A stretch of DNA of 64,000 nucleotides from an uncultured Alteromonadaceae bacterium (GTDB taxonomy: Bacteria; Pseudomonadota; Gammaproteobacteria; Enterobacterales; Alteromonadaceae): assembly GCA_938085045.1 (NCBI GenBank), contig CALKGI010000028.1, positions 62,001 through 126,000 on the forward strand, written 5' to 3'. Position 1 is the stretch's first letter. Every line of letters starts with the position of its first letter. The notes below the pieces were generated by a model. It searched no databases. It worked only from the letters and a program-made list of their open reading frames with translations, and was not told the origin of the DNA. Both the position numbers and the translations under genes were made by a program. Positions 4,601 to 37,557 of this stretch are shown one piece after another.

Positions 4601-6356
4601 CATTGCCCGCTTTTAATGAGAAATCACAAGCGCCACGGTCAAGAATGACAATGTTACCAGCCAGTGCATCGGCGTTAGTTGCAGATTCACAAGCATCGTT
4701 TGCTGGGTCTGTGCCATCTTCATAACGAACTAGACTACCAGATAAGTTATACACACCTGGGCTAAAGCTTGAGTTAAGGAAGTCGACTTCTGTTTGTGTA
4801 CCAATGCTCAAAGGTAAGTTATTACCTTCAACCCACAAATACATTTGCATCCGTGGTGAACGACCATCGTTAGGAATGGTCATGTTGGCATTGTTGGTGC
4901 TTTCGCTATCTTGACCTTGAACATGTAACGGATCGCCGTCTAAACCGCCACGACCGAAGTTGTCCATTTGTGCATTACCCGATGCTTCGTCAAAACCGTG
5001 GTCATAGTAAACATCATGAAGGTAGTTGTTTACATAGAACAAGTTGACGATAGCGGCATTCATGTTGGTTGGCGTATCGTGAGCATCAGTTTGAGTGAAC
5101 TGGTAATCAAATGCGCCAGCAGAAGTTGTTTGAGCTCTGACGTCACCTGGAACTGCATTACCTTCATCATCTGTGGTTGGGGCGTTGAATCCATCTGGTG
5201 CTGTAATGTCGGCATAAGCATCAACATTGTTACCAGTAGTTTCAGTTGCGCCCGCTGGCAGCCATGGATCGTTGGTTGAAATACCAACGTTCTCAATCGT
5301 CAGGTCATTCATTGGCTGTTGTACTTCGGTCAAAACGTCAGTAGCAACACCCGTTGGATGAGGTGATAATTCGTTACCCATTGGGCTGTCGTAAGGTTTG
5401 TATGGTGCAGTGGCATCAGCAAACACTTTATAAGTGAAAGCTTCATTAAAGGTCATGCTGTGACGGCTTAAGATAGTACCGTTTTTAGCTGAGATCACAT
5501 AGCGATAACCTTGTGAACTTGTAGAACCTTTAGTGGCACCGATAACTTCAATATAGTAAGCCGGAACCAAGTCTTTTTTACCTGGGTAATAAACTTTCTT
5601 AGCGCGAACTTCGTCAGAAACGCTTAACTGGCTGTCGCCGTTTTGCACTTTGAAGTTCTGGTATTTACCTTTGTCAGCAGATTTGGTCATGCTGACTTCG
5701 TCACCACCCATGTCACCAATAGCAACATTGATAGCATCGGTTACAGCGAATTTAAACTGAACGCCAATCGGTTGGAGCGGCATTTTGGCTTTAGAGAAGT
5801 AACCGGTTGTGGCAACCAATTCCATGTCTTGATTCATCAATACATTGAATTGACGACCTTCAACTTCGATACCATTAACCATTTGTTGATACTTGGAAAC
5901 AAGACCACCACGACCTGTGTCGTGTATGTATTTCAGTTCAGCTTGAGCAATGGCATCAGTTGTTACGCCATGTTTGGCACCTACTGTTTGTGCGAATTGC
6001 AATGAAGCTTGTTCAATACCAGCTTTGCGGTTTAATACGTTAAAAGGAACCGCCGCTTTGCTTTGCTCACTGGTAGCCCAGCTGAAAGTATGAACGTCTA
6101 ATACTTTGTCATAATGATCAGATTTGGCTGTGCGGGTGATCCCGCGGTTGAGGTTTTCGACTTTTTTAAAGTCATTCGCTACTCGGACATTGGGGGCTTT
6201 GGCATTGTTTTTGGCTTCTCGGGCCATCTGGACGTTGTAGTCAAAGCTTGGTAAAGCATGTTTGGCTGGGAGTGAATGAGAAGCTGCGAACGCGGTGCTG
6301 GTCAGCACAGAAGAAACAGCAGCGGCGACAAGCGTCGTTCTTATTTTGTTATCCAT
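1617..6356 (-). CDS. Secreted M36 (fungalysin-type) metalloprotease with PA and Ig-like domains and C-terminal sorting tail
   Basis: A 1579-residue exported zinc protease. The start at 6356 follows a GAAGGTAAT ribosome binding site and gives a clean signal peptide ending near TAFAASHS; an in-frame ATG at 6401 would add 15 residues ahead of it. The N-terminal third looks like an FTP/PepSY propeptide. A protease-associated insert (GACDFSLKAGNAQAAGALGV) lies near 555-610. The zinc site HEWGH is near residue 664, followed by EGWGDF carrying the third ligand, as in M36. Three PKD/cadherin-like repeats fill about 1245-1545. The last 30 residues are a Ser/Gly hinge, a hydrophobic helix and RRRKQK, resembling a GlyGly-CTERM tail cut by rhombosortase. 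It is probably exported by the nearby type II system and processed at the cell surface. Confidence 0.93.
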   Translation of the reverse strand: MDNKIRTTLVAAAVSSVLTSTAFAASHSLPAKHALPSFDYNVQMAREAKNNAKAPNVRVANDFKKVENLNRGITRTAKSDHYDKVLDVHTFSWATSEQSKAAVPFNVLNRKAGIEQASLQFAQTVGAKHGVTTDAIAQAELKYIHDTGRGGLVSKYQQMVNGIEVEGRQFNVLMNQDMELVATTGYFSKAKMPLQPIGVQFKFAVTDAINVAIGDMGGDEVSMTKSADKGKYQNFKVQNGDSQLSVSDEVRAKKVYYPGKKDLVPAYYIEVIGATKGSTSSQGYRYVISAKNGTILSRHSMTFNEAFTYKVFADATAPYKPYDSPMGNELSPHPTGVATDVLTEVQQPMNDLTIENVGISTNDPWLPAGATETTGNNVDAYADITAPDGFNAPTTDDEGNAVPGDVRAQTTSAGAFDYQFTQTDAHDTPTNMNAAIVNLFYVNNYLHDVYYDHGFDEASGNAQMDNFGRGGLDGDPLHVQGQDSESTNNANMTIPNDGRSPRMQMYLWVEGNNLPLSIGTQTEVDFLNSSFSPGVYNLSGSLVRYEDGTDPANDACESATNADALAGNIVILDRGACDFSLKAGNAQAAGALGVLIANNDTDNPDQLVNMGAGDNPPNITIPVLSISYNTGVATYAEMANGPIEVSVASDQSVRDGTVDNPIIEHEWGHYFSGRLAVGMYGNSQGGSMGEGWGDFVALMHVVREEDQQIAGNEHFEALYNDGGYSLNNGGWTDPYYFGLRRAPYTTNMEFNALTFKHIQDQVALPDTHPLNSSDFGKSGGFNAEVHAAGEIWALALWESYVALLNRDGKSFDESEGQMMDYIVAGLKMTPANPTYTEARDAILAVVIANSMDDYTLMRAAFAKRGMGPGAVSPARNDAGFDGTDASQGHAGVVEDFTTQYSAVELTAADLDTAYVGLEGAFCDSDDILDVGETAALRFTVRNSGTTMQHGVKAMVSSTADVTFANGGVVEFENMHVWNASKSALVEMTLNSADVNSTIPIHITFSAEDSSARLPADIDATVTVNRDIAKDERRTMDDFETIPTVWADWSQHKIGPADSGNFVGLDDWTVLDVGFGTGNTMMGPDGRVQTDISLMSPMVKVGASGEFAMDFNHYYEYEVSPADGDTPAIYWDGSVLEISVDGGDWTDVIAAGGSFTENGGYNGTLVDSNPVLGGRTAFVDTISTLWITPERITFPEGTMNGHDVQFRFRIGTDQAAGGWGWNLDDVSFTNAENPAWSSIVADSGVCVNRPPAIGTQTQEVTEAAGGDQNVITLSVNVIDHDDPGKANILRQYDTYEEFAAVAAANNSAFTYNWTQTSGPDVTLDDSHSATPSFTAPVVGSDTDMTFSVEVSDGAAASTATVGVRITNVNSAPMVSGITGPEQVNENMEVTLIAMGEDPEGDALTYTWAQTGGTAATFASTTDHLTFNAPQVDDDEMLTFTAMTSDGEFTSEAASFSFTVLGNTAPTLSADSATYSVDEKKSVTLSVTGVDTDGDDLTYTWMVDGEAVNNSGNTYEFIAPRVTEDSTSAVSVTVSDGVFTSDAVNMTVNIKNTSSGAGMGLVTLLLAPLAFIRRRKQKLVK

Positions 6357-8682: not shown

Positions 8683-9723
8683 TTGTCTTCTTTAACAGAT
8701 GTATTAAACAAGTTAAAACAGTTGCCTCAAGCGCGTTTAAGTCAGCTTGTTGTAGCACTGGGGCTGATTTATATTGCCTCCATTTTGGCCAATATCAGCT
8801 GGATGTTGGTGCCCGGGGCTGATGGCGGTTCTAACATCACATCACCTGGACAGCGTGCTTCTAGTGCAGGCAAATCCTCTGGTTCGTCATTTAATATCGG
8901 CTCGCTAACTGGCTTGAATATCTTTGGCAAACACCAGATTGAAACCAAAAAGGTTGACGTGGCACCGCCGCCGGTTCAAACCGATGCGCCCGAAACCAAC
9001 TTGAACCTGACTTTGTCGGCCACTGTTGCCGAGGGCACGAGTGGCGAAGGTTCAGCCATCATTGAAAGTGGTGGTACTCAGGGTACTTATGGTATCGGTG
9101 AAAAAATTAATTCAAGCACGGCGATTGTCCGTCAGGTTTATACCGACCGAGTGATTATTCAAAACGGGTCAAGAAATGAAACCCTGATGCTTGATGGTGT
9201 TGAATACGACAGCAAAAATGTGGCTCACGAGGTTAAAAAACCCAATAGCAACGCACGGCCACAAAAGAAAAAACTCTCTTTGAATAACAATCGCAAGGTC
9301 GATAAACGTAAAGATCCTAAACTAAGTAGCCGATTAGCACAGCAGCGCGATGAACTGGCTAAAGACCCAAAGAAACTATTTGAATTAATTCGTTTTTCGC
9401 CTGTACGTAAAGGCGGCGGCTTGGCGGGTTATCGTCTTAACCCAGGTGCGCAGCCTGACCTGTTTAAACAAGCTGGTTTTAGGCCGAACGATTTGGCGGT
9501 AGAAGTTAACGGTTATGCCTTGAATGATATGCAACAAGCGATGAAGGTGTTGCGCGAGTTCAGAACATTGACCGAAGCCAATATAGTGGTAGAGCGTGAT
9601 GGTATTCGTACAGAAATTTTGTTCTCTTTGGATGGGGCCTCGGACAACAGTCGAGGGCCACAATCGCGTGAACCAAAACCTCGCCAGCCAGCACCGCGCA
9701 AGCCCAAAGGCCAATTAAATTAG
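8683..9723 (+). CDS. gspC: Type II secretion system protein GspC
   Basis: Inner-membrane clamp that links the GspD secretin to the inner-membrane platform. The 346-residue protein has a short cytoplasmic segment, one membrane helix near residues 20-45 (LVVALGLIYIASILANISWML), an HR domain (NLTLSATVAEGTSGEGSAII) and a C-terminal PDZ domain around 245-315 (GYRLNPG, NDLAVEVNGYALND). A Pro/Arg/Lys-rich tail follows. The start is TTG at 8683, chosen because TAAGGT lies just upstream and it gives the expected N-terminus. First gene of a twelve-gene operon. Confidence 0.95.
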   Translation: MSSLTDVLNKLKQLPQARLSQLVVALGLIYIASILANISWMLVPGADGGSNITSPGQRASSAGKSSGSSFNIGSLTGLNIFGKHQIETKKVDVAPPPVQTDAPETNLNLTLSATVAEGTSGEGSAIIESGGTQGTYGIGEKINSSTAIVRQVYTDRVIIQNGSRNETLMLDGVEYDSKNVAHEVKKPNSNARPQKKKLSLNNNRKVDKRKDPKLSSRLAQQRDELAKDPKKLFELIRFSPVRKGGGLAGYRLNPGAQPDLFKQAGFRPNDLAVEVNGYALNDMQQAMKVLREFRTLTEANIVVERDGIRTEILFSLDGASDNSRGPQSREPKPRQPAPRKPKGQLN

Positions 9724-27849: not shown

Positions 27850-27890
27850 ATTAACCTGGCCCGTTTTTTATGTTGTAACTAGTGGATTTG

Positions 27891-27934
27891 CCTACAGGGA
27901 CGTAGGCAAGGCGCTGTGCAGGAGCACAACAGCG
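27891..27934. repeat. Pair of adjacent small hairpins (REP-like)
   Basis: CCTAC-AGGGAC-GTAGG is immediately followed by CGCTG...CAGCG around a TGC/GCA core. The pair lies upstream of the SRAP gene and looks like a short dispersed intergenic repeat. Confidence 0.4.
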
Positions 27935-28019
27935 TTTATCCACGCTTTTCATTACGTAAATACCGACTTTACGATAGAATGATTAAACCGATTGTATTAA
28001 TTATTCAGGATTTATCAAC

Positions 28020-28256
28020 ATGAAAATGGTTTCTTTTAGTCAAGTGAAGCAAGACCCTGAGTCATTTTTTGACAGTGTTGTTGTAAACGACGGATGTGTT
28101 GGTATTCGCCGTAGTGATGGCGAAGATGTTGTGACTATGTCAAAGAAATATTATGAGGCGTTAGTGGAGACGTTATATTTGTTAAAAGAACCAGCTAATA
28201 CAGCTCATTTGATAGAATCTATAGCGCAGTATGAAAGTAGGAATGGTGACGAGTAG
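28020..28256 (+). CDS. Phd/YefM-type antitoxin-like protein heading the Wadjet-like operon
   Basis: A 78-residue protein with a Phd/YefM fold signature: FSQVKQDPESFFDSV, an arm with GCVGIRRSDGEDVVTMSKKYYEAL, then a helical C-terminus. Family members bind DNA as dimers and neutralise RelE/Doc-type toxins through the C-terminal tail. No RelE, YoeB or Doc toxin follows; its stop is three bases before the ATG of the JetD-like gene. A CAGGA ribosome binding site precedes the start. It may be the autoregulator of the operon or a guard component. Confidence 0.75.
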   Translation: MKMVSFSQVKQDPESFFDSVVVNDGCVGIRRSDGEDVVTMSKKYYEALVETLYLLKEPANTAHLIESIAQYESRNGDE

Positions 28257-28259
28257 ATA

Positions 28260-29105
28260 ATGCCTAGTCTTGCCCAATACTTGAAGAAAATCCAATGCGG
28301 TGAGTTGGTTAATTACCCTGTCTTTTTAAAAACTCTGCCCAAAAACGAACAAATAGATCATTGGGAGATTTTCAGTTCACAAAAACAGCTTATTGGCAAA
28401 AACAAGTTTAAAGTGGAGATTAAAGACTTACAGCGCTTTGAACAGTTGCTAAGCGATGCTGGTATGCCTGTTGGAAACCGCATACAAGCGGCCGAAAAAG
28501 GCGATTCGCATCAAGTTGCCACTTCTTACAGCTTTTTATTGATTTATCACAGCCAACTTTTCGATAACCGACCCGATGTTGTTTTACTCCATCAAGACAA
28601 ACTTACGCAGTCTTTCAAAGCCAAAAAACAGCTATTAATCATTGAAAACGAAGAGAATTTCTTCAGTTATCAGCAAATGTTGCCATTGTTGTCAGACTTT
28701 TATGGTCAACGACTGAATTTAGACAATTGCGATATCGTCTTTGGTGCGGGCAATCAAATAAACAAAGGGCTTAACTTATGTTTCTTCGACCAGTATCATA
28801 GCGTCCTTTGTGCTTTTGACTTCGATTTGGGTGGTTTGCAGATGTTTAAAACCCTGCATCAACGACTTGATAAAGACGTGACTTTTTTGATGCCCAATGA
28901 TTATGCACCTTGGCAAGTTCATTTTAAAAAATCACCCAAAAACGAAAAGCATTGGGTGGCTGCAATTGATTTGGCTGAAGCATTGGGTTTTGGTCAGTTG
29001 GCAGCAACGTTCAAGCACACACGGTATTTTATGGAGCAGGAGATATTGCTTCGCAATATAGCGGGGATGAATCACCCGCCTACGACAAACAATGAAGGAA
29101 AATAA
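28260..29105 (+). CDS. jetD: JetD/MksG-like TOPRIM nuclease subunit
   Basis: Candidate DNA-cleaving subunit of a Wadjet/MksBEFG-type plasmid-defence condensin. The 281-residue protein has a TOPRIM-like core: IENEENF near 127-133 supplies the Glu, and FDFDLGGL near 186-193 supplies the Asp-x-Asp. It is shorter than typical JetD (around 380 residues), so the N-terminal arm appears reduced. It is placed before the ATPase gene, and its stop overlaps the next ATG. The call rests on the TOPRIM motif plus the MukB/F/E-like neighbours. Confidence 0.72.
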   Translation: MPSLAQYLKKIQCGELVNYPVFLKTLPKNEQIDHWEIFSSQKQLIGKNKFKVEIKDLQRFEQLLSDAGMPVGNRIQAAEKGDSHQVATSYSFLLIYHSQLFDNRPDVVLLHQDKLTQSFKAKKQLLIIENEENFFSYQQMLPLLSDFYGQRLNLDNCDIVFGAGNQINKGLNLCFFDQYHSVLCAFDFDLGGLQMFKTLHQRLDKDVTFLMPNDYAPWQVHFKKSPKNEKHWVAAIDLAEALGFGQLAATFKHTRYFMEQEILLRNIAGMNHPPTTNNEGK

Positions 29106-32041
29106 TGTCAGATCATTTTGAGTTCGAAATCAAACGATTGGTATTGGTTGATTCGGCAGGGTTTTGTTATGTCGACTTGCCAGTGGACGAGCACGCCATA
29201 TTGTTGGGCAATGGTAACCTAGGTAAATCGAGCCTACTCAATTCCTTGCGTTTATTTTTGTTGCCCGAAAACAACTTTAAAAACAGCAAAAATAAGTTCG
29301 CTTTTTCCACGCCCAAGCGTGATGGTTTTTATGACAATGAAGAAAGTTATAACCATTATTTTCCATCAAAATTCAGCTTCTTAATCCTTGAAGTCAGCAA
29401 TAACATGGGTGGCTCTACTCAAACCCATTGCCAAATTTTGCATCGCAGTTCTGGCCACTTGGCATATGAGCGCATTTTTACACCTTTACCGTATGCAAAA
29501 ATCCAACAACTGTTTTGGGATGGCTCAAATGATGAAGATGGCATAGGCCACCGTGTTGAAGGGTTATCGAGCAGTGCTGTTTTCAAAGCTTTAAAAGCAC
29601 TCGACAAAAATACCAGCAGCGTTAAAGACCCTGCCAAATTCAAAGCGCTACTTTATGCCAATGACTTTTTGTCACCCGCTGCAATGCGTTACAGCATTTT
29701 CCCACTGGCAGAATGTGACGAAGCTCGAATAGAATCGCTCAGAACCTTGATTTTATTGCTGTTTGATATGAATGCCAGTTCAGAACCAGTCGCCAACGCA
29801 GTGGCCAATATCATCGAAGCCGACAAAAAATTTGTCGACGATGTGCTCGACTTTGATATCTCGCAGTTTTTAGACAAACACAACGACTTAAAGCAGCAAG
29901 ATATCGATTTGACCAAAATCGAAAACCTCACAGACAAGTACCAACAGCTAAACGGCGATTTTCAGCAATATCGTTCATTGGCCGATAGCGAGAAAAAATT
30001 CGCTGCTTTTTATGAACAGCTCACCACAGTGTCAGAAGGTCAACGATTGTTGCTCAATGACAAATCCACTGAACTGGGCGTGGCTCAAGGTAATGAACGC
30101 GAACAAGGCAAACTTTATAAGTCGCTGTCAGATCAAAATAAAAAGCTCACGGGCGAAGTGAATAGTTTGACCCGCCAGCAAAACAAAGCACAGGCGTCGG
30201 TAGATAAAGCACAAAACCTGTTGGTGACTTACCCAGATATGCCGATTGCTGAAGTTGTTGAACTGATTCAATCAGATATCAGCGAAAACAACAGCCGATT
30301 GGCCGCACTAGAGAGTGAATCGCAACGAGCGGTGCGCATTAATAAGCTAAGAGAGCAGGTTGCAACCAATGAAGCTGACCGCACCAAACGCCAAGCGAAT
30401 TTAGACAATCAGCATTACAGCCTAGAACAGCAATTGCCAGAGGGCAGTTGGCAGGTGCTTGCAGCCGTTAATAAGTCACTTGCACTGGCTAATCCTACTC
30501 GTGAGTTAACTGCTGAAGAACTCAGCACGTTTGAGAATTTTACCGACCTGTTCTATCAAGATGAAAGCACGGTAGCTATTTATAACGAACGCTTTCAAAA
30601 ACAATCAAGCTCATTGGTTCGTGACGATGAGCGCATGATTCAAAACCTCACTGCCGAAATTAACGCCGACAACCGCGAATTGAAGCAACTTGAGCAAGGC
30701 CACAGCAGCGCCATCAACAAAGCTAACGACATTGCTAATCTAAAACGTGATGTTCAGCAGGCCGGGGTAGAATTAGTGCTGATTGGCGACTTAGACTTTC
30801 ATCGAAAAACCGTTGAAAGTTTAAAGCAACCATTAACTGAAGCGCAAAGCCAGTTAGACGAGAATAAACAACAAATTTCGCAAGAAGAAACCAAACTTCA
30901 TACTTTTAGCGCCGAACACGAAAAACTAAAAGCCGAGCGTGCTCAGTTACAAACTCGCGTGAATGCGCTAAAAGAGTTAGAAAACAGCACAGGTCATATG
31001 ATGACCAGCCAGCCTCGATTGGCTGCCGCTGTTAAACAAGGTTTTCCAGATTCAGAAGAACTTGAATTGACGGCAGCCGTGTTGAAGCAAATCAACGAAG
31101 ATTTGATAGCGGTGTCTGAGCTTGGCAACAAACTGCTGTTTGGCTTGCGTCATTTTGTCACCGAGCAAGTGATTGAAGACGAAAGAGGCATAATGGCCGA
31201 AAGCCCAGACAGAAAGGCCATTGTCGAAACCTTCAATTTGTTGATTGATACCTTCAATAACCTGCCCGGACGTCGAAATGTGTTGCAAGAGCAAGTGCGT
31301 ACACACAACGAGTCGGTGCAGGGTTATGCCAATATACTGCACAAAAACCATGAACATATTAAGCGCTTTGAGCAACAGTTGAATCGCGACTTTGCCGAGA
31401 TTGAAATTAACGATCTTGACGGTATTGAGGTCGACATTCATATCGACAAACGCTTTGAAAACCTAGTTCAAGAAGTACATAAGTTCGATTTATTGTCTGA
31501 TGAAATGCTGCCCGAAAACTTTTATGAACGCTTAAAAGCCTTTGCCGAAGGGTTCTTTAAAAACGGTGTTACTGCGCGGTTGACCATGGACAAAGTGGTT
31601 ACCAATCTGTCGTATCGCACCCGTAAAAAAATGCAAAGCACTTGGCAGACCAAACAGCAATCAAACTCTACCACCGCACTTATCAATTTAAAACTGGTGC
31701 AAATACTGCTGAGTAAATTGCGTGCCAATGGTTGTTCTTTGATGTTCCCGCTGGTACTCGATGAAGTGGCAACGGTAGATGTTAACCAGTTTGATTGGTT
31801 ACTCGACGACATTAAGCGCAGTGGCTTTAACTTGTTTGCAGCCAGTACGCACAGTGCCAGCCCTGAGTTGATTTACAAAATCGGCCGCCATCATGAGCTG
31901 GGCGAAATGCGCACGGCAAAGCCTTATTCGAGTGAACGAACCATGGTTTACTGGGGTGGTGCTGAGTTTTTTGCCGACGAACAGTCGGCACATGTTGAAC
32001 AATTGGGTTTGTTAGAGGCGGTTGATGAGCAAACAATTTAG
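29105..32041 (+). CDS. jetC: JetC/MksB-like SMC ATPase
   Basis: SMC-family motor of a Wadjet-type system that extrudes DNA loops and recognises small circular DNA. It has 978 residues. Walker A is GNGNLGKSS at 34-42. A long coiled coil spans about 260-720, interrupted by a short hinge-like region near 440-500. Walker B is PLVLDEVATVD near 882-892, with a signature-like QSNSTTALINLKL before it. The N-terminal ATPase half begins as MukB/MksB proteins do. It is somewhat shorter than usual JetC. Its start overlaps the jetD-like stop and its end overlaps the jetA-like gene by 17 bases. Confidence 0.82.
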   Translation: MSDHFEFEIKRLVLVDSAGFCYVDLPVDEHAILLGNGNLGKSSLLNSLRLFLLPENNFKNSKNKFAFSTPKRDGFYDNEESYNHYFPSKFSFLILEVSNNMGGSTQTHCQILHRSSGHLAYERIFTPLPYAKIQQLFWDGSNDEDGIGHRVEGLSSSAVFKALKALDKNTSSVKDPAKFKALLYANDFLSPAAMRYSIFPLAECDEARIESLRTLILLLFDMNASSEPVANAVANIIEADKKFVDDVLDFDISQFLDKHNDLKQQDIDLTKIENLTDKYQQLNGDFQQYRSLADSEKKFAAFYEQLTTVSEGQRLLLNDKSTELGVAQGNEREQGKLYKSLSDQNKKLTGEVNSLTRQQNKAQASVDKAQNLLVTYPDMPIAEVVELIQSDISENNSRLAALESESQRAVRINKLREQVATNEADRTKRQANLDNQHYSLEQQLPEGSWQVLAAVNKSLALANPTRELTAEELSTFENFTDLFYQDESTVAIYNERFQKQSSSLVRDDERMIQNLTAEINADNRELKQLEQGHSSAINKANDIANLKRDVQQAGVELVLIGDLDFHRKTVESLKQPLTEAQSQLDENKQQISQEETKLHTFSAEHEKLKAERAQLQTRVNALKELENSTGHMMTSQPRLAAAVKQGFPDSEELELTAAVLKQINEDLIAVSELGNKLLFGLRHFVTEQVIEDERGIMAESPDRKAIVETFNLLIDTFNNLPGRRNVLQEQVRTHNESVQGYANILHKNHEHIKRFEQQLNRDFAEIEINDLDGIEVDIHIDKRFENLVQEVHKFDLLSDEMLPENFYERLKAFAEGFFKNGVTARLTMDKVVTNLSYRTRKKMQSTWQTKQQSNSTTALINLKLVQILLSKLRANGCSLMFPLVLDEVATVDVNQFDWLLDDIKRSGFNLFAASTHSASPELIYKIGRHHELGEMRTAKPYSSERTMVYWGGAEFFADEQSAHVEQLGLLEAVDEQTI

Positions 32042-33428
32042 CACCCTAGAAACTTTGCGAATATTGCTCGACCACAAACGGGTGATGTTCGAAGCCATCC
32101 GTTTAATGGATAGGTCGGGCGATCGTTATATCAACGAAGCACGGTTGGCAGTGACTGTTCTCGATCACATGAAAGATTTAGACGGTGTTGAAAAACAACG
32201 TGTACAAATCGCTTTTTCGACCGATAACCTGCTGCAAACCCATATTTTGGCCGACAAAGACACGCATAGCGGCGTTACAAGGCTGATATTCCAAGAAGCT
32301 GTTATTGGTTTGTTTCGTTTGTGTGATGCTTCTTTATATCAAGAATTGACCGACTCGAAGCTTAAATCTCGTTTGGCGGGCTTGTGGCGAGTGCAAGAAA
32401 GGTTTCAGTCAGGCACCTTGTCATATTACGAAGGTGACCCAGATTACACCGAGCTGGTGGACGATACTTTTGAACAACTAAGCATGTTGCTCGATGTACT
32501 CAAACGTAACGTGATTAGAATGAAATCGCTAAGCCAAGATTTTGAAGGTATGTCGACCGAGGCATGTAAAGACCCTCAATCGTTTGCTCGTTTTCGCGAA
32601 GACTTGCTGGTGCAGGTTACCACTTTGTTTGAGCGTCATATCAAACCGACTCAGAGCTTTTTGAACCACAATATTCGCTTGGCTGAGGGCGACAACCTGT
32701 TCGAAGTAATGAACACTATCAAGCTGGTGTTTGAGCGTAATGACAAAATCGATAAAGCCGACCAAATATTTCGCTTCAGCCTTAGCTTTAGCAATATATT
32801 CAAACCTATCACTTTAGTGGCTCATCAAGTAGACCAATTTTTGCGTAAAACTCGGGCATCGATGGCACAGTTTAACGCGATGGAACACCATTATCAGTTG
32901 CTCAGCGATGCCTACGAACTGACGCTTGATCACAAACTCAATAAAACTAAAATTGACTCGAATTACGCCAAGTCGTTTGAGTTTATCAACGGCCTGAAAA
33001 AACTGCCTCGGCCTAAAGATTTACGCATTAGTGACTCACCAAGTTACTTTGCTAATTTGTTTGCTGAGTTAGAAGTACGCCTTGCCGATAAACTGTCGAA
33101 CGCCTTGCCACTAGATGATGCAACTGCGTGGCAAAGCGAAGAGAACAGTAATAAAATCAAACGGAATTTGGCATTGTATGACTACCTGTCGACGATAAAA
33201 CTTCGCCAAACCAACGACTTGACCGCTGTATTACATTACCGCCTAAAAGACTCATTTGAAGGTTACGACATGATGGATTTACTCAGTGCCGTCATTCGAA
33301 TGCGTAAAAAGCAAGATCACTTTGAATTGAAAACCACCAACCGCATGGCGTACATCACCCATGGCGACAACGTTTATGTTTACCGGCGCAAGCGCTTGGT
33401 TGCCACTGAACCCTGTGAGGAAAGTTAA
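32025..33428 (+). CDS. jetA: JetA/MksF-like kleisin subunit
   Basis: Kleisin that bridges the two SMC heads and carries the JetB subunit. It has 467 residues, mostly helical, with an N-terminal winged-helix-like part (LETLRILLDHKRVMFEAIRL). The middle contains long helices and the C-terminus a winged-helix-like segment (RMAYITHGDNVYVYRRKR). Size and position beside the SMC gene match MukF/JetA. The ATG at 32025 lies inside the end of the ATPase gene; a TTG three bases upstream is less likely. Identification leans on context. Confidence 0.7.
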   Translation: MSKQFSTLETLRILLDHKRVMFEAIRLMDRSGDRYINEARLAVTVLDHMKDLDGVEKQRVQIAFSTDNLLQTHILADKDTHSGVTRLIFQEAVIGLFRLCDASLYQELTDSKLKSRLAGLWRVQERFQSGTLSYYEGDPDYTELVDDTFEQLSMLLDVLKRNVIRMKSLSQDFEGMSTEACKDPQSFARFREDLLVQVTTLFERHIKPTQSFLNHNIRLAEGDNLFEVMNTIKLVFERNDKIDKADQIFRFSLSFSNIFKPITLVAHQVDQFLRKTRASMAQFNAMEHHYQLLSDAYELTLDHKLNKTKIDSNYAKSFEFINGLKKLPRPKDLRISDSPSYFANLFAELEVRLADKLSNALPLDDATAWQSEENSNKIKRNLALYDYLSTIKLRQTNDLTAVLHYRLKDSFEGYDMMDLLSAVIRMRKKQDHFELKTTNRMAYITHGDNVYVYRRKRLVATEPCEES

Positions 33429-33429
33429 G

Positions 33430-34044
33430 ATGCAAACCGAAGCCCCCGAGACTGTACAAGTAGCTGCCCCTGTGGCGACAGTCAACCCGTTTGATTTGGT
33501 TAGCGCCCAGCACAGCACGTTAATATATCGTCAGTTTGTGCAAGGCAAGGTGATGACTAAGTTGTTGTACAACGACATAAAAGCCCAGATGATCGAAAAC
33601 CCGTTATTCACGGTGTTGTTCAACCATCAAGCCCATTTCGAGCACCTATATCGGCACTTGGGTTATGAACTGTGCTTCCACCAAAAAGGCGATTTTTACT
33701 ACGTTAGAGAATTACGCGAGGACTCAAGCGAAGAAGCCGACGACAATGCCCTTAAAGTACAAACCACGTTGTTGTTACTTGGCCGTTATTACACTGGGTC
33801 TGGCAGAGATTTAAACTTACTATGCGACCCACACTTTGGCTTGAACGATGCTGATCATAAGGCATTGAACGAGAATGAAGAATTTAAGGCAATTTTGAAA
33901 GCTGTAAGGTTGGATAGCTGGGATAAGGCTTTAGATTTTATCACCGTACGTAATTTTGCGTTTAAGAGCGGTGAAAATTGCTACTTTTTGTCGCAGGCCG
34001 GTAAAGCGTTTTTGTTCCGGTTGGTTGAGGAGTATGAAGGATGA
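33430..34044 (+). CDS. jetB: JetB/MksE-like subunit
   Basis: KITE-type partner of the kleisin in MukBEF-like complexes. It has 204 residues from the ATG at 33430, which has GAGGAAAG upstream; an earlier in-frame ATG at 33361 lies within jetA and is not favoured. The sequence has the MksE layout of two winged-helix-like units (LIYRQFVQGKVMTKLLYNDI, HLYRHLGYELCFHQKGDFYYVRE) and ends with FLFRLVEEYE. Last gene of the operon. Confidence 0.72.
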   Translation: MQTEAPETVQVAAPVATVNPFDLVSAQHSTLIYRQFVQGKVMTKLLYNDIKAQMIENPLFTVLFNHQAHFEHLYRHLGYELCFHQKGDFYYVRELREDSSEEADDNALKVQTTLLLLGRYYTGSGRDLNLLCDPHFGLNDADHKALNENEEFKAILKAVRLDSWDKALDFITVRNFAFKSGENCYFLSQAGKAFLFRLVEEYEG

Positions 34045-34135: not shown

Positions 34136-35161
34136 TCAGCTGCTCTTATTAATATCTGAATCATCAACGCCTAATTTTAGTGGTGTATTGGATTGGATTA
34201 ATTTCTTTTGGGCTTCATCTCCAATTGACAATTTACTATCATTTATGACAATTTCCGGCTGACCTTCAATCAAGGTGTTTAATGCTTTGGATACAACTAC
34301 GGCTGATTTGTTGATGTGATCATCTAGTTCGTCAACAGAAATGCCTTCTGCGCTTAATTTCTTACGAAGTTCCAATATCGATTCTAACGCTTCGATTTGT
34401 TTTGGGATCGCGGAAAACTTGCCCTCTTCTGTGAAGTTCCGGTAAACAAAGCCTACCCCGGATTTAACTAAGCCTGTCATCAAATCGATAACTTTACTGT
34501 TGCCAAAGACTTTAATCCACAAGCTACCAGACTCGATTTTCAATATTTGAATTGGCGAGGATATATCAGTTAACATGCACAATTCTTTATATATTCTCTC
34601 AATTGACTGAAGCTTCAGAATGAATTCGGCCAGTGACAGGGTTGACGAAAGATAAATTGATAATTCTTTGCCATCTTCAGACTCGGGTGTTGCAGCTTTA
34701 ACATTTGCTACATAAAAACAAAGTCCTTTTTTGAAGCCGTTTAAGAGTGACATCAAAGTCTTCGATTCTTCGACCAACACATACGCGTTTTTCGCATTCT
34801 GATTGTCTATATAACTTTCATAGATATGTGTAAAACTCTCCAATGCATTATCAATTTCATTTAGTTGAGATAGGTCGGTCAAATCAGATGCTTTAATTTG
34901 TCTAATGTCACTCTGAAATTTTTCTATCGCAGCAAATAAACTACGAGGTTTTACGCCGATTGTATCTTTTACAGTGGTGAGTTTATCTCTAAATTCATTG
35001 ATAGGAGGACTCATAAAGTCATCAAAAAATATAATGTCGGTTATTTCTCTTAATTCGGGATTTAAGGAGTTAATATTCTTAAGACCTAAGAACAATAATT
35101 CAGCGTCCTCAAATGCAGTTAATATTCTGTCGATTTCTTCTTTTATTTGAAACGAAAGCAT
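34136..35161 (-). CDS. Hypothetical protein of 341 residues
   Basis: Not recognised. The start has an excellent GGAGGAAA ribosome binding site, so it is a real gene. The protein is acidic and largely helical, with coiled-coil-like parts (EIDRILTAFEDAELL, IPKQIEALESILELRKKL). A conserved-looking central phrase, IESGSLWIKVFGNSKVIDL, precedes a mildly hydrophobic helix (MTGLVKSGVGFVY) that could be membrane-associating. It converges on the Wadjet-like operon and could be a defence accessory or an independent gene; nothing in the sequence decides this. Confidence 0.6.
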   Translation of the reverse strand: MLSFQIKEEIDRILTAFEDAELLFLGLKNINSLNPELREITDIIFFDDFMSPPINEFRDKLTTVKDTIGVKPRSLFAAIEKFQSDIRQIKASDLTDLSQLNEIDNALESFTHIYESYIDNQNAKNAYVLVEESKTLMSLLNGFKKGLCFYVANVKAATPESEDGKELSIYLSSTLSLAEFILKLQSIERIYKELCMLTDISSPIQILKIESGSLWIKVFGNSKVIDLMTGLVKSGVGFVYRNFTEEGKFSAIPKQIEALESILELRKKLSAEGISVDELDDHINKSAVVVSKALNTLIEGQPEIVINDSKLSIGDEAQKKLIQSNTPLKLGVDDSDINKSS

Positions 35162-35428
35162 ATATCTTATTTCCTCCGAAAACTATGAGTACCACTACTA
35201 CGTATTATTGGAAAATAAAATATGTCCAACGTTATACCATAGTGCTGTTTTATATGACGAACAGAATAATACCATGCCTATGATAAAGGCTAAAAGTAAA
35301 GTCCCTCATATTTCGTATGCAACTATGCAAAGTCGTAGCAGTGGTTCTAACTTGTTGATATTGGATTACATGGCGGTGGATTTTTCTTTATACTGTATGC
35401 TCAATCGAGTTAACTACCGGGATATTTA

Positions 35429-36016
35429 ATGTCACTAGCAGCCCAATTAACCTTATCAACCTTAGATTACCTTCAAGGCGAATTGACCGCTGTCAACAAA
35501 CATGAGTTGATTGACGGTGTTGCCTATGCCATGGCTGGTGGAACGGTGGCGCATAATATTATCTCTTTGAATATTGCCGCAGAGCTAAAATATCAACTAA
35601 AAGGAAAGCCATGCAGACCATTCATGGCTGATATGTTGGTGCAAATACTCGGCGATCATTATTACCCAGATGTTATGGTTGTGTGCGAAGAACATGAAGA
35701 TGATACAGACCGGGTATTGAATGCGCCGATGCTTATTGTTGAGGTTCTATCTAAATCAACCCGTGCTTTTGACCATTCGATCAAACAAGCCAAGTATTTG
35801 CAGATCCCATCACTTGAGTATTATGTACTGATTGAGCAAGATATTTGCGAAGTTGCTGTATTGAGTCGGGCGGGTGGTTTTATTTCCAAATATTATTATC
35901 TCGGCGATGACATTGAATTACCTCTGCTCGATGTTATTGTCAGTGTTAACGACATATATGAACGAATTGAAAATGAAGACAAGGTTAACTACCTTAAATC
36001 ATTGGGAGGAACATGA
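35429..36016 (+). CDS. Uma2-family (DUF820) PD-(D/E)xK endonuclease-like protein
   Basis: A 195-residue restriction-endonuclease-fold protein. HELIDGVAYAMAGGTVAHN, PDVMVVCEE and LIVEVLSKSTRAFDH..KQAKYLQIPSLEYYVLI are the family signatures; PDV-x-EV-K/Q mark the nuclease core. The family is very abundant in cyanobacteria and scattered elsewhere; its biological role is unsettled. It is followed by a small membrane protein gene 76 bases downstream. Confidence 0.85.
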   Translation: MSLAAQLTLSTLDYLQGELTAVNKHELIDGVAYAMAGGTVAHNIISLNIAAELKYQLKGKPCRPFMADMLVQILGDHYYPDVMVVCEEHEDDTDRVLNAPMLIVEVLSKSTRAFDHSIKQAKYLQIPSLEYYVLIEQDICEVAVLSRAGGFISKYYYLGDDIELPLLDVIVSVNDIYERIENEDKVNYLKSLGGT

Positions 36017-36482: not shown

Positions 36483-36866
36483 ATGCAATTGGCACAGGCA
36501 CCAAAGCTTGATTCAAGAAAAGTCGCCAAAGTTGCGATTAAAATGTTTTTTAATATCTGCCAACAGTGGTCATTATCCTCAGAGCAAATGTTGATATTGC
36601 TAGGTGAGCCATCAACTTCATTGTTTTATAAATGGAAGCGAGGAGACGTCAGTAATTTACCTAAAGATACCCTAGAAAGAATTTCTTATTTGTCAGGGGT
36701 TTATAAAGCACTACAGATTATTTTTGAAGAAAAAAATCAGGCAGACAGTTGGATAAAACGACCTTCATCTGATTTTAATGGTAAATCGGCATTAGACGTT
36801 ATGCTTGGTGGTAACGTTGTCGATTTGGCTGGGATCAGAAAATACCTCGATAGTTACAGAGGTTAA
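36483..36866 (+). CDS. Xre/MbcA/ParS-type antitoxin (DUF2384)
   Basis: A 127-residue DNA-binding antitoxin. The N-terminal part is a Xre-like helical domain (LSSEQMLILLGEPSTSLFYKWKRGD, broken here for description). The C-terminal ALDVMLGGNVVDLAGIRKYL and DSYRG form the toxin-binding DUF2384 domain. The start has TTAGGAGGC upstream. It precedes the RES toxin by one base, which is the standard gene order of this toxin-antitoxin class. Confidence 0.9.
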   Translation: MQLAQAPKLDSRKVAKVAIKMFFNICQQWSLSSEQMLILLGEPSTSLFYKWKRGDVSNLPKDTLERISYLSGVYKALQIIFEEKNQADSWIKRPSSDFNGKSALDVMLGGNVVDLAGIRKYLDSYRG

Positions 36867-36867
36867 T

Positions 36868-37557
36868 ATGACGCAGACTCACTTATTAAAGACAGATGTA
36901 CTTTGGCAAGCGCACCGTATTATTCAAAGTCGTTTTCCCCCAATTAATCTGTTTGAAAGCATTGTTGATGTCGACGAATTAGAAGAAGCTTTTTATATCG
37001 AAGGTCTCACCAATGACAGGTTACGCGAAGAGGCTGGAGATTTGGCTTTAATCGCCAAACAAGACAGAATATGCGGGCCGGGTACAACGTCCATTATGGC
37101 CGCATTCACCCATATTGGCCGTGCAAGTCGCTTTACCAATGGCGATTATGGGGTTTATTACGCTGCGAGTTCTACTGAAACGGCCATTGCCGAAACCCAA
37201 TATCATCAAGCCAAATTTCTCAGCGCTACCAACGAAGTCGACACCAAGTTGTCGATGCGCGAGTATTGTGGCCACGTTCACCGACCAATGTTAGACGTTC
37301 GAGATAAAGTCGCTTTTTCCACTCTTTACCATCTGAGTGATTACTCTTGTGCGCAGGCCTTTGGCGCAGAGCAACGAAAAAACGATGTTAATGGGCTGCT
37401 TTACAACAGCGTAAGGCGAGCAAATAGCGAATGTATTGCGGCGTTCAAACCAATCGCCTTGTCGGCAGTGTTACAGTCAAAACATTTTATTTATTATTAC
37501 AAGCAAGCCAGCCAAATGGTCGAGCAAGTGATGGAAGTTCGACAAGTCGAGCTTTAA
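36868..37557 (+). CDS. RES-domain toxin (NAD+-depleting)
   Basis: RES toxins degrade NAD+ and stop growth when the antitoxin is lost. The 229-residue protein has the conserved RES surface residues in order: WQAHRI near the start, GRASRFTNGDYGVYYAAS with the Arg and Tyr, then ETAIAETQYH. The ATG at 36868, one base after the antitoxin stop, is preferred over an upstream in-frame start within the antitoxin gene. It forms an operon with the ParS-type antitoxin. Confidence 0.92.
   Translation: MTQTHLLKTDVLWQAHRIIQSRFPPINLFESIVDVDELEEAFYIEGLTNDRLREEAGDLALIAKQDRICGPGTTSIMAAFTHIGRASRFTNGDYGVYYAASSTETAIAETQYHQAKFLSATNEVDTKLSMREYCGHVHRPMLDVRDKVAFSTLYHLSDYSCAQAFGAEQRKNDVNGLLYNSVRRANSECIAAFKPIALSAVLQSKHFIYYYKQASQMVEQVMEVRQVEL

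Follow-up and report, generated by a model that had tools for sequence, protein, structure and literature searches.

A divergent Wadjet-like SMC-nuclease operon, jetDCAB, preceded by an orphan Phd/YefM-like gene in an uncultured Alteromonadaceae bacterium

When a gene for an antitoxin-like protein stands at the head of an operon for an SMC ATPase, its partner subunits and a nuclease, two questions arise: what does the machine do, and does the antitoxin-like protein belong to it? Such a locus lies within a window of 64,000 nucleotides (the whole stretch of DNA that was analysed) from the draft genome of an uncultured Alteromonadaceae bacterium (5.9 Mb in 317 contigs, ~81% complete). The first-pass annotation had described a five-gene Wadjet-like operon, and the five co-directional, closely packed ORFs are all present at 28020-34044 (+), as is the gap of three bases between phd and jetD (Table 1). 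The four genes jetDCAB are adjacent and co-directional, as in the complete homologous loci; the phd frame is the best of the six frames by codon use, and phd and jetDCAB are probably co-transcribed. The evidence that follows argues, with a probability of roughly 0.8, that jetDCAB is a divergent Wadjet-like SMC-nuclease operon restricting plasmids or circular DNA, and that the Phd-like gene is an orphan insertion.

Table 1. Features of the jetDCAB locus in window coordinates
Feature	Position	Strand	Size and basis
phd-like (orphan Phd/YefM antitoxin gene)	28020..28256	+	78 aa; PF02604; found in the window genome only
jetD/mksG-like TOPRIM nuclease	28260..29105	+	281 aa; PF09983, invariant residues, model and structural matches
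jetC/mksB-like SMC ATPase	29105..32041	+	978 aa; motifs, profile comparison with MksB
jetA/mksF/mukF-like kleisin	32025..33428 (start 32022 or 32025)	+	467-468 aa; structural matches to MukF and JetA
jetB/mksE-like KITE protein	33430..34044	+	204 aa if ATG 33430 is the start; PF21980
Intergenic, divergent upstream gene to phd	27850..28019	.	dispersed repeat and a short stretch aligning to a relative's promoter region

The assignment of JetD as a TOPRIM nuclease is borne out by domain, structural, and active-site evidence. JetD scores 28.2 bits against the Pfam family JetD_C (PF09983; cut-off 22). In its predicted model (mean pLDDT 82) the TOPRIM domain comprises about residues 88-271, and this segment matches C. 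glutamicum MksG (Z 11.7), topoisomerase VI-A (Z 10.0), and P. aeruginosa JetD (Z 9.6); matches to MksG, topoisomerase VI-A, JetD, and Spo11 span Z 8.6-11.7, while TOPRIM rows of the DnaG/primase type reach Z 6.5 or less. (It should be noted that residues 1-88 lie outside the VIA-align structural matches, none of them being paired with the CAP domain, and that Foldseek with the JetD model alone gives weak matches, with a best E of 0.0016 and JetD ranked third.) The active site is intact: both JetD alignments show E129, D187, E259, and E261 without variation, and these residues correspond by motif and spacing to E236, D279, E349, and E351 of MksG, the acids that bind Mg or are proposed to be nucleophilic (PMC10123090). 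Given the matches of the model and these invariant acids, JetD has the TOPRIM fold on which the nuclease call had been made to depend.

The partner subunits are recognizable by other routes. JetC carries an intact Walker A motif (GNGNLGKSS, residues 35-43), a signature-like stretch (QSNSTT, residues 852-857; distant relatives have QSGGTT or the like), and an intact Walker B motif (PLVLDE, ending at E887), and all three are conserved across its family. A profile of 18 members of this family matches MksB-like proteins with 98.4% probability (E 8.5e-15), in an alignment that takes in the C-terminal head region. For JetA, whose predicted model is of modest confidence (mean pLDDT 70), the eight best structural rows are all MukF (Z 14.0-14.8), and Foldseek ranks E. 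coli Wadjet JetABC first (prob 0.99). JetB scores 68.1 bits against Pfam MksE (PF21980; cut-off 27). The Pfam search returned nothing for JetC (SMC) or JetA (kleisin), the sequences of JetC, JetD, and JetA gave weak or coiled-coil matches only against solved structures, and PADLOC yielded, apart from a weak JetD3 match, only low-scoring LmuB or JetC matches, mostly inside the coiled coil, its JetA, JetB, and JetC models leaving window subunits A, B, and C unrecognized. The identities of the four subunits thus come from Pfam for JetD and JetB, from profile comparison for JetC, and from structural matches for JetD and JetA. All four kinds of subunit are present, adjacent, and co-directional, in agreement with the initial description of the operon as Wadjet/MksBEFG-like.

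To place the operon among its relatives, JetC homologues were gathered from the order, class, phylum, and family of the window's genome, as well as from named genomes and plasmids, and gene order was compared at 40 distinct loci that include jetD. The complete order D-C-A-B in one direction is seen at 38 of these loci; contig ends truncate the remaining two. Most JetD proteins in this set have 260-300 aa, and most JetC proteins 950-1040 aa. The first-pass annotation was therefore correct in reporting the order D-C-A-B and a short nuclease (the JetD/MksG chains among the known structures compared are ~90 residues longer), but neither is peculiar to this locus; with ~40 loci alike, the order is a trait of the family rather than a local rearrangement, and so is the shortness of JetD. 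Strong JetC matches occur in 22 of 297 genomes of the window's family and in 7 of 398 genomes sampled from its phylum, the latter including the window genome itself and three more of its family. A presence of the operon in phages was considered and rejected, as 50,697 phage records gave no JetC match and a scan of viral contigs gave no relative. No paper with the words jetDCAB or mksGBFE was found in the library searched. One copy carries additional small genes: on a plasmid of Photobacterium damselae (locus L013), the start of jetD is overlapped by a 74-aa gene (4967-5191), and jetC is separated from jetA by a DUF5406 gene and a second small gene (8929-9703).

The nearest JetC relative, which is 94% identical, belongs to a metagenome-assembled Algicola sp.; in the one further genome of the genus that was compared, the 94% JetC match has the same contig coordinates, and its locus, L045, is syntenic with the window. 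Comparison with L045 gives dN/dS values of 0.24 for jetD (28260-29105 in the window, 1958-2809 in L045), 0.04 for jetC, 0.03 for jetA, and 0.05 for jetB, and this range of 0.03-0.24 argues that all four are real, selected genes. At the protein level JetD evolves about six times faster than the motor, with 70% identity between the two loci versus 94% for JetC. Replacement of phd and jetD by recombination is not supported as an explanation for this lower identity, because dS is similar across the operon (0.83 for jetD, 0.95 for jetC, 0.86 for jetA) and only dN is raised. Downstream of jetB, the window holds a minus-strand gene for a 341-aa protein without a family and a Uma2-type gene (PADLOC PDC-S03) at 34136-36016; L045 has other genes here, so the site is variable. 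Farther on, a gene for an Xre/MbcA/ParS-type antitoxin (36483-36866) is followed by an ORF of 250 aa (36805-37557) that may encode its toxin, and both are also found in L045.

How, then, does this family relate to known SMC systems? Like Wadjet type I/MksBEFG (JetABCD), it combines a kleisin, a KITE protein, an SMC protein, and a TOPRIM nuclease with the same active-site acids, and it occurs in a defence setting. Unlike type I, the order is D-C-A-B rather than A-B-C-D (the reference order is mksFEBG; PMC10123090), JetD is short compared with about 370-390 aa, JetC has about 980 rather than about 1110-1120 aa, and subunits A, B, and C are missed by the PADLOC type I models. There is some likeness to types II and III, in that JetD is weakly similar to JetD3 of PADLOC (2023; 25.6 bits) and JetA bears some structural resemblance to its Wadjet-II counterpart (Z 9.4); however, the JetC of Wadjet II, at 1371 aa, is much longer, and the type II/III models give no clear matches for A, B, and C. 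Consequently, with JetD3 at this score and nothing convincing for the other three subunits, the operon is filed under none of types I, II, and III. The MksBEF condensin of the Pseudomonas type also has an MksE-family KITE protein and an MksB-like SMC protein of similar length (~940-aa open frames), but the window operon differs from it in having a TOPRIM nuclease and another gene order, and many of its relatives lie beside defence genes.

Several of these neighbourhoods are informative. Among the 38 other loci whose upstream DNA could be read, 18 have a gene for a WYL-domain regulator adjoining jetD upstream (14 divergent, 4 co-directional), and the three of these regulators that were tested all match PF13280; BrxR/CapW-type WYL proteins are repressors of defence systems (PMC9122601). 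The expectation of a regulator ahead of jetD is in this sense well founded, but the protein that commonly occupies this place is of the WYL type and not an antitoxin. Defence genes adjoin the operon at L104 (type III restriction-modification and a GmrSD/SspE-like gene) and at L124 (Gabija). A complete CBASS set, consisting of a cyclase, E1-E2, JAB, and a SAVED-HNH effector, is present at L115 (1383-6192), where it ends 68 bases upstream of jetD in the same direction, and also at L114. At L101 (9707-11637) a CBASS cyclase gene starts ~19 bases after jetB, again in the same direction, and is followed by a 4TM effector, so that jetDCAB and CBASS may belong to a single operon there; a similar cyclase gene occurs at L102 and L103. 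Because the defence neighbours tested were picked by eye and the loci are related to one another, the counts lack independence and do not amount to a statistical test. Nevertheless, the CBASS, Gabija, and restriction neighbours, together with the frequent WYL regulators, point to defence as the likely role of the family.

An alternative is that the complex is mainly a chromosome-organizing condensin like Pseudomonas MksBEF, with the nuclease serving repair or segregation and not defence. The resemblance of the SMC and KITE subunits to MksB and MksE fits this idea, and so do the Colwellia copies (L046-L050), which occupy a conserved housekeeping place beside yejK-, yejL-, yejM-, and pyrC-like genes, unlike the defence islands seen elsewhere. 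A housekeeping role is nonetheless improbable in view of the patchy occurrence of the family, the two divergent copies that some genomes carry, the copies on large plasmids, and the defence genes and WYL regulators that adjoin many copies. For a defensive machine, the most likely target is plasmids or other small circular DNA. By homology, the MukF-like kleisin and the MksE-type KITE protein would link a pair of SMC ATPases to form a DNA motor that would run along or extrude circular DNA; at the end of extrusion, the DNA would be passed to a dimer of the TOPRIM nuclease for cutting.

There remains the first gene. Its product scores 41.1 bits against PhdYeFM_antitox (PF02604; cut-off 29.8), and its best match in the structure database is E. 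coli YefM (2a6q). The first-pass annotation had seen in it an antitoxin built into the system. This reading fails, because the Phd-like gene occurs at one of the 40 loci (with all loci and their flanks searched, the YefM-family profile is positive for the window only) and is missing from L045. A built-in antitoxin is thus excluded as a trait of the family, and the adjacency to jetDCAB recurs at 0 of the 39 other loci. In L045, the distance from the divergent upstream gene to jetD is 71 bases, versus 410 in the window; the extra DNA consists of a dispersed repeat of ~65 bp and phd with a short leader, and part of the 71-bp promoter region of L045 is shared by the window at 27850-28019. The repeat (27885-27950) has a second copy on contig C305 of the window's genome, 92% identical over 65 bp. 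These comparisons suggest that phd was inserted in this lineage between jetD and the ancestral promoter region, a gain here rather than a loss elsewhere.

The inserted gene resembles half of a familiar pair. The protein is at most 48% identical to YefM homologues, which are usually paired with YoeB; 19 of the 21 homologues examined are followed by a YoeB-like ORF that overlaps the end of the antitoxin gene (one of the 19 is truncated). Unlike YefM-YoeB, the window gene has no toxin gene behind it, jetD coming next, and no YoeB (PF06769) match was found in the ~81% complete genome. In addition, the C-terminus is shortened by the last residues of the YefM family, and the N-terminal DNA-binding motif TEARN..K.VLD is mostly lost (SQVKQDPESFFD; R10 to K and L13 to P are among the changes); of the 16 conserved columns in the first 22 residues, 6 are retained. 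The gene is probably a leftover of a YefM-YoeB pair and not part of the machine; remnant is its most likely status, with a role as repressor or in anti-addiction possible.

YefM-type antitoxins are known autorepressors, and the protein might repress the operon in place of the WYL regulator of other family members. Its gene comes first, just ahead of jetD, in a slot that often holds a regulator. However, the erosion of the DNA-binding motif makes this role unlikely, and no clear operator was seen, the sole short perfect inverted repeat sitting within the dispersed repeat. It has also been argued that chromosomal antitoxins can act in anti-addiction, an established idea, and residues 51-89 of YefM bind the toxin (PMC7354431). 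By analogy, the orphan protein could neutralize the YoeB left behind by destroyed YefM-YoeB plasmids and so spare the cell. The toxin-binding segment (residues 49-73) keeps 12 of 16 conserved columns versus 17 of 39 in the N-terminal half, a contrast whose Fisher p of 0.04 is marginal and comes from a split chosen after the alignment had been inspected. YefM homologues are common on plasmids, with marine Vibrio and Pseudoalteromonas among the hosts, and the lack of a YoeB in the genome would also fit, although at this completeness a YoeB gene could be missed. Since the gene is found in one genome only and the protein lacks the last residues of its family, such a role has a low probability. More doubtful still is the capture, by an SMC nuclease operon that destroys plasmids, of an orphan antitoxin no longer able to bind DNA but still able to bind the toxin; if true, this would let the host destroy toxin-antitoxin plasmids without death by post-segregational poisoning.

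With the Phd-like gene taken as an orphan insertion, it offers a clear case of a neighbour that draws attention but, once loci are compared, turns out to be an outsider. The operon behind it has wider meaning: a D-C-A-B family with a short nuclease and a compact SMC protein, which escapes the defence models applied here, would extend SMC-based plasmid immunity beyond its known range, and the frequent WYL regulators and the direct CBASS neighbourhood provide leads on how such systems switch on.
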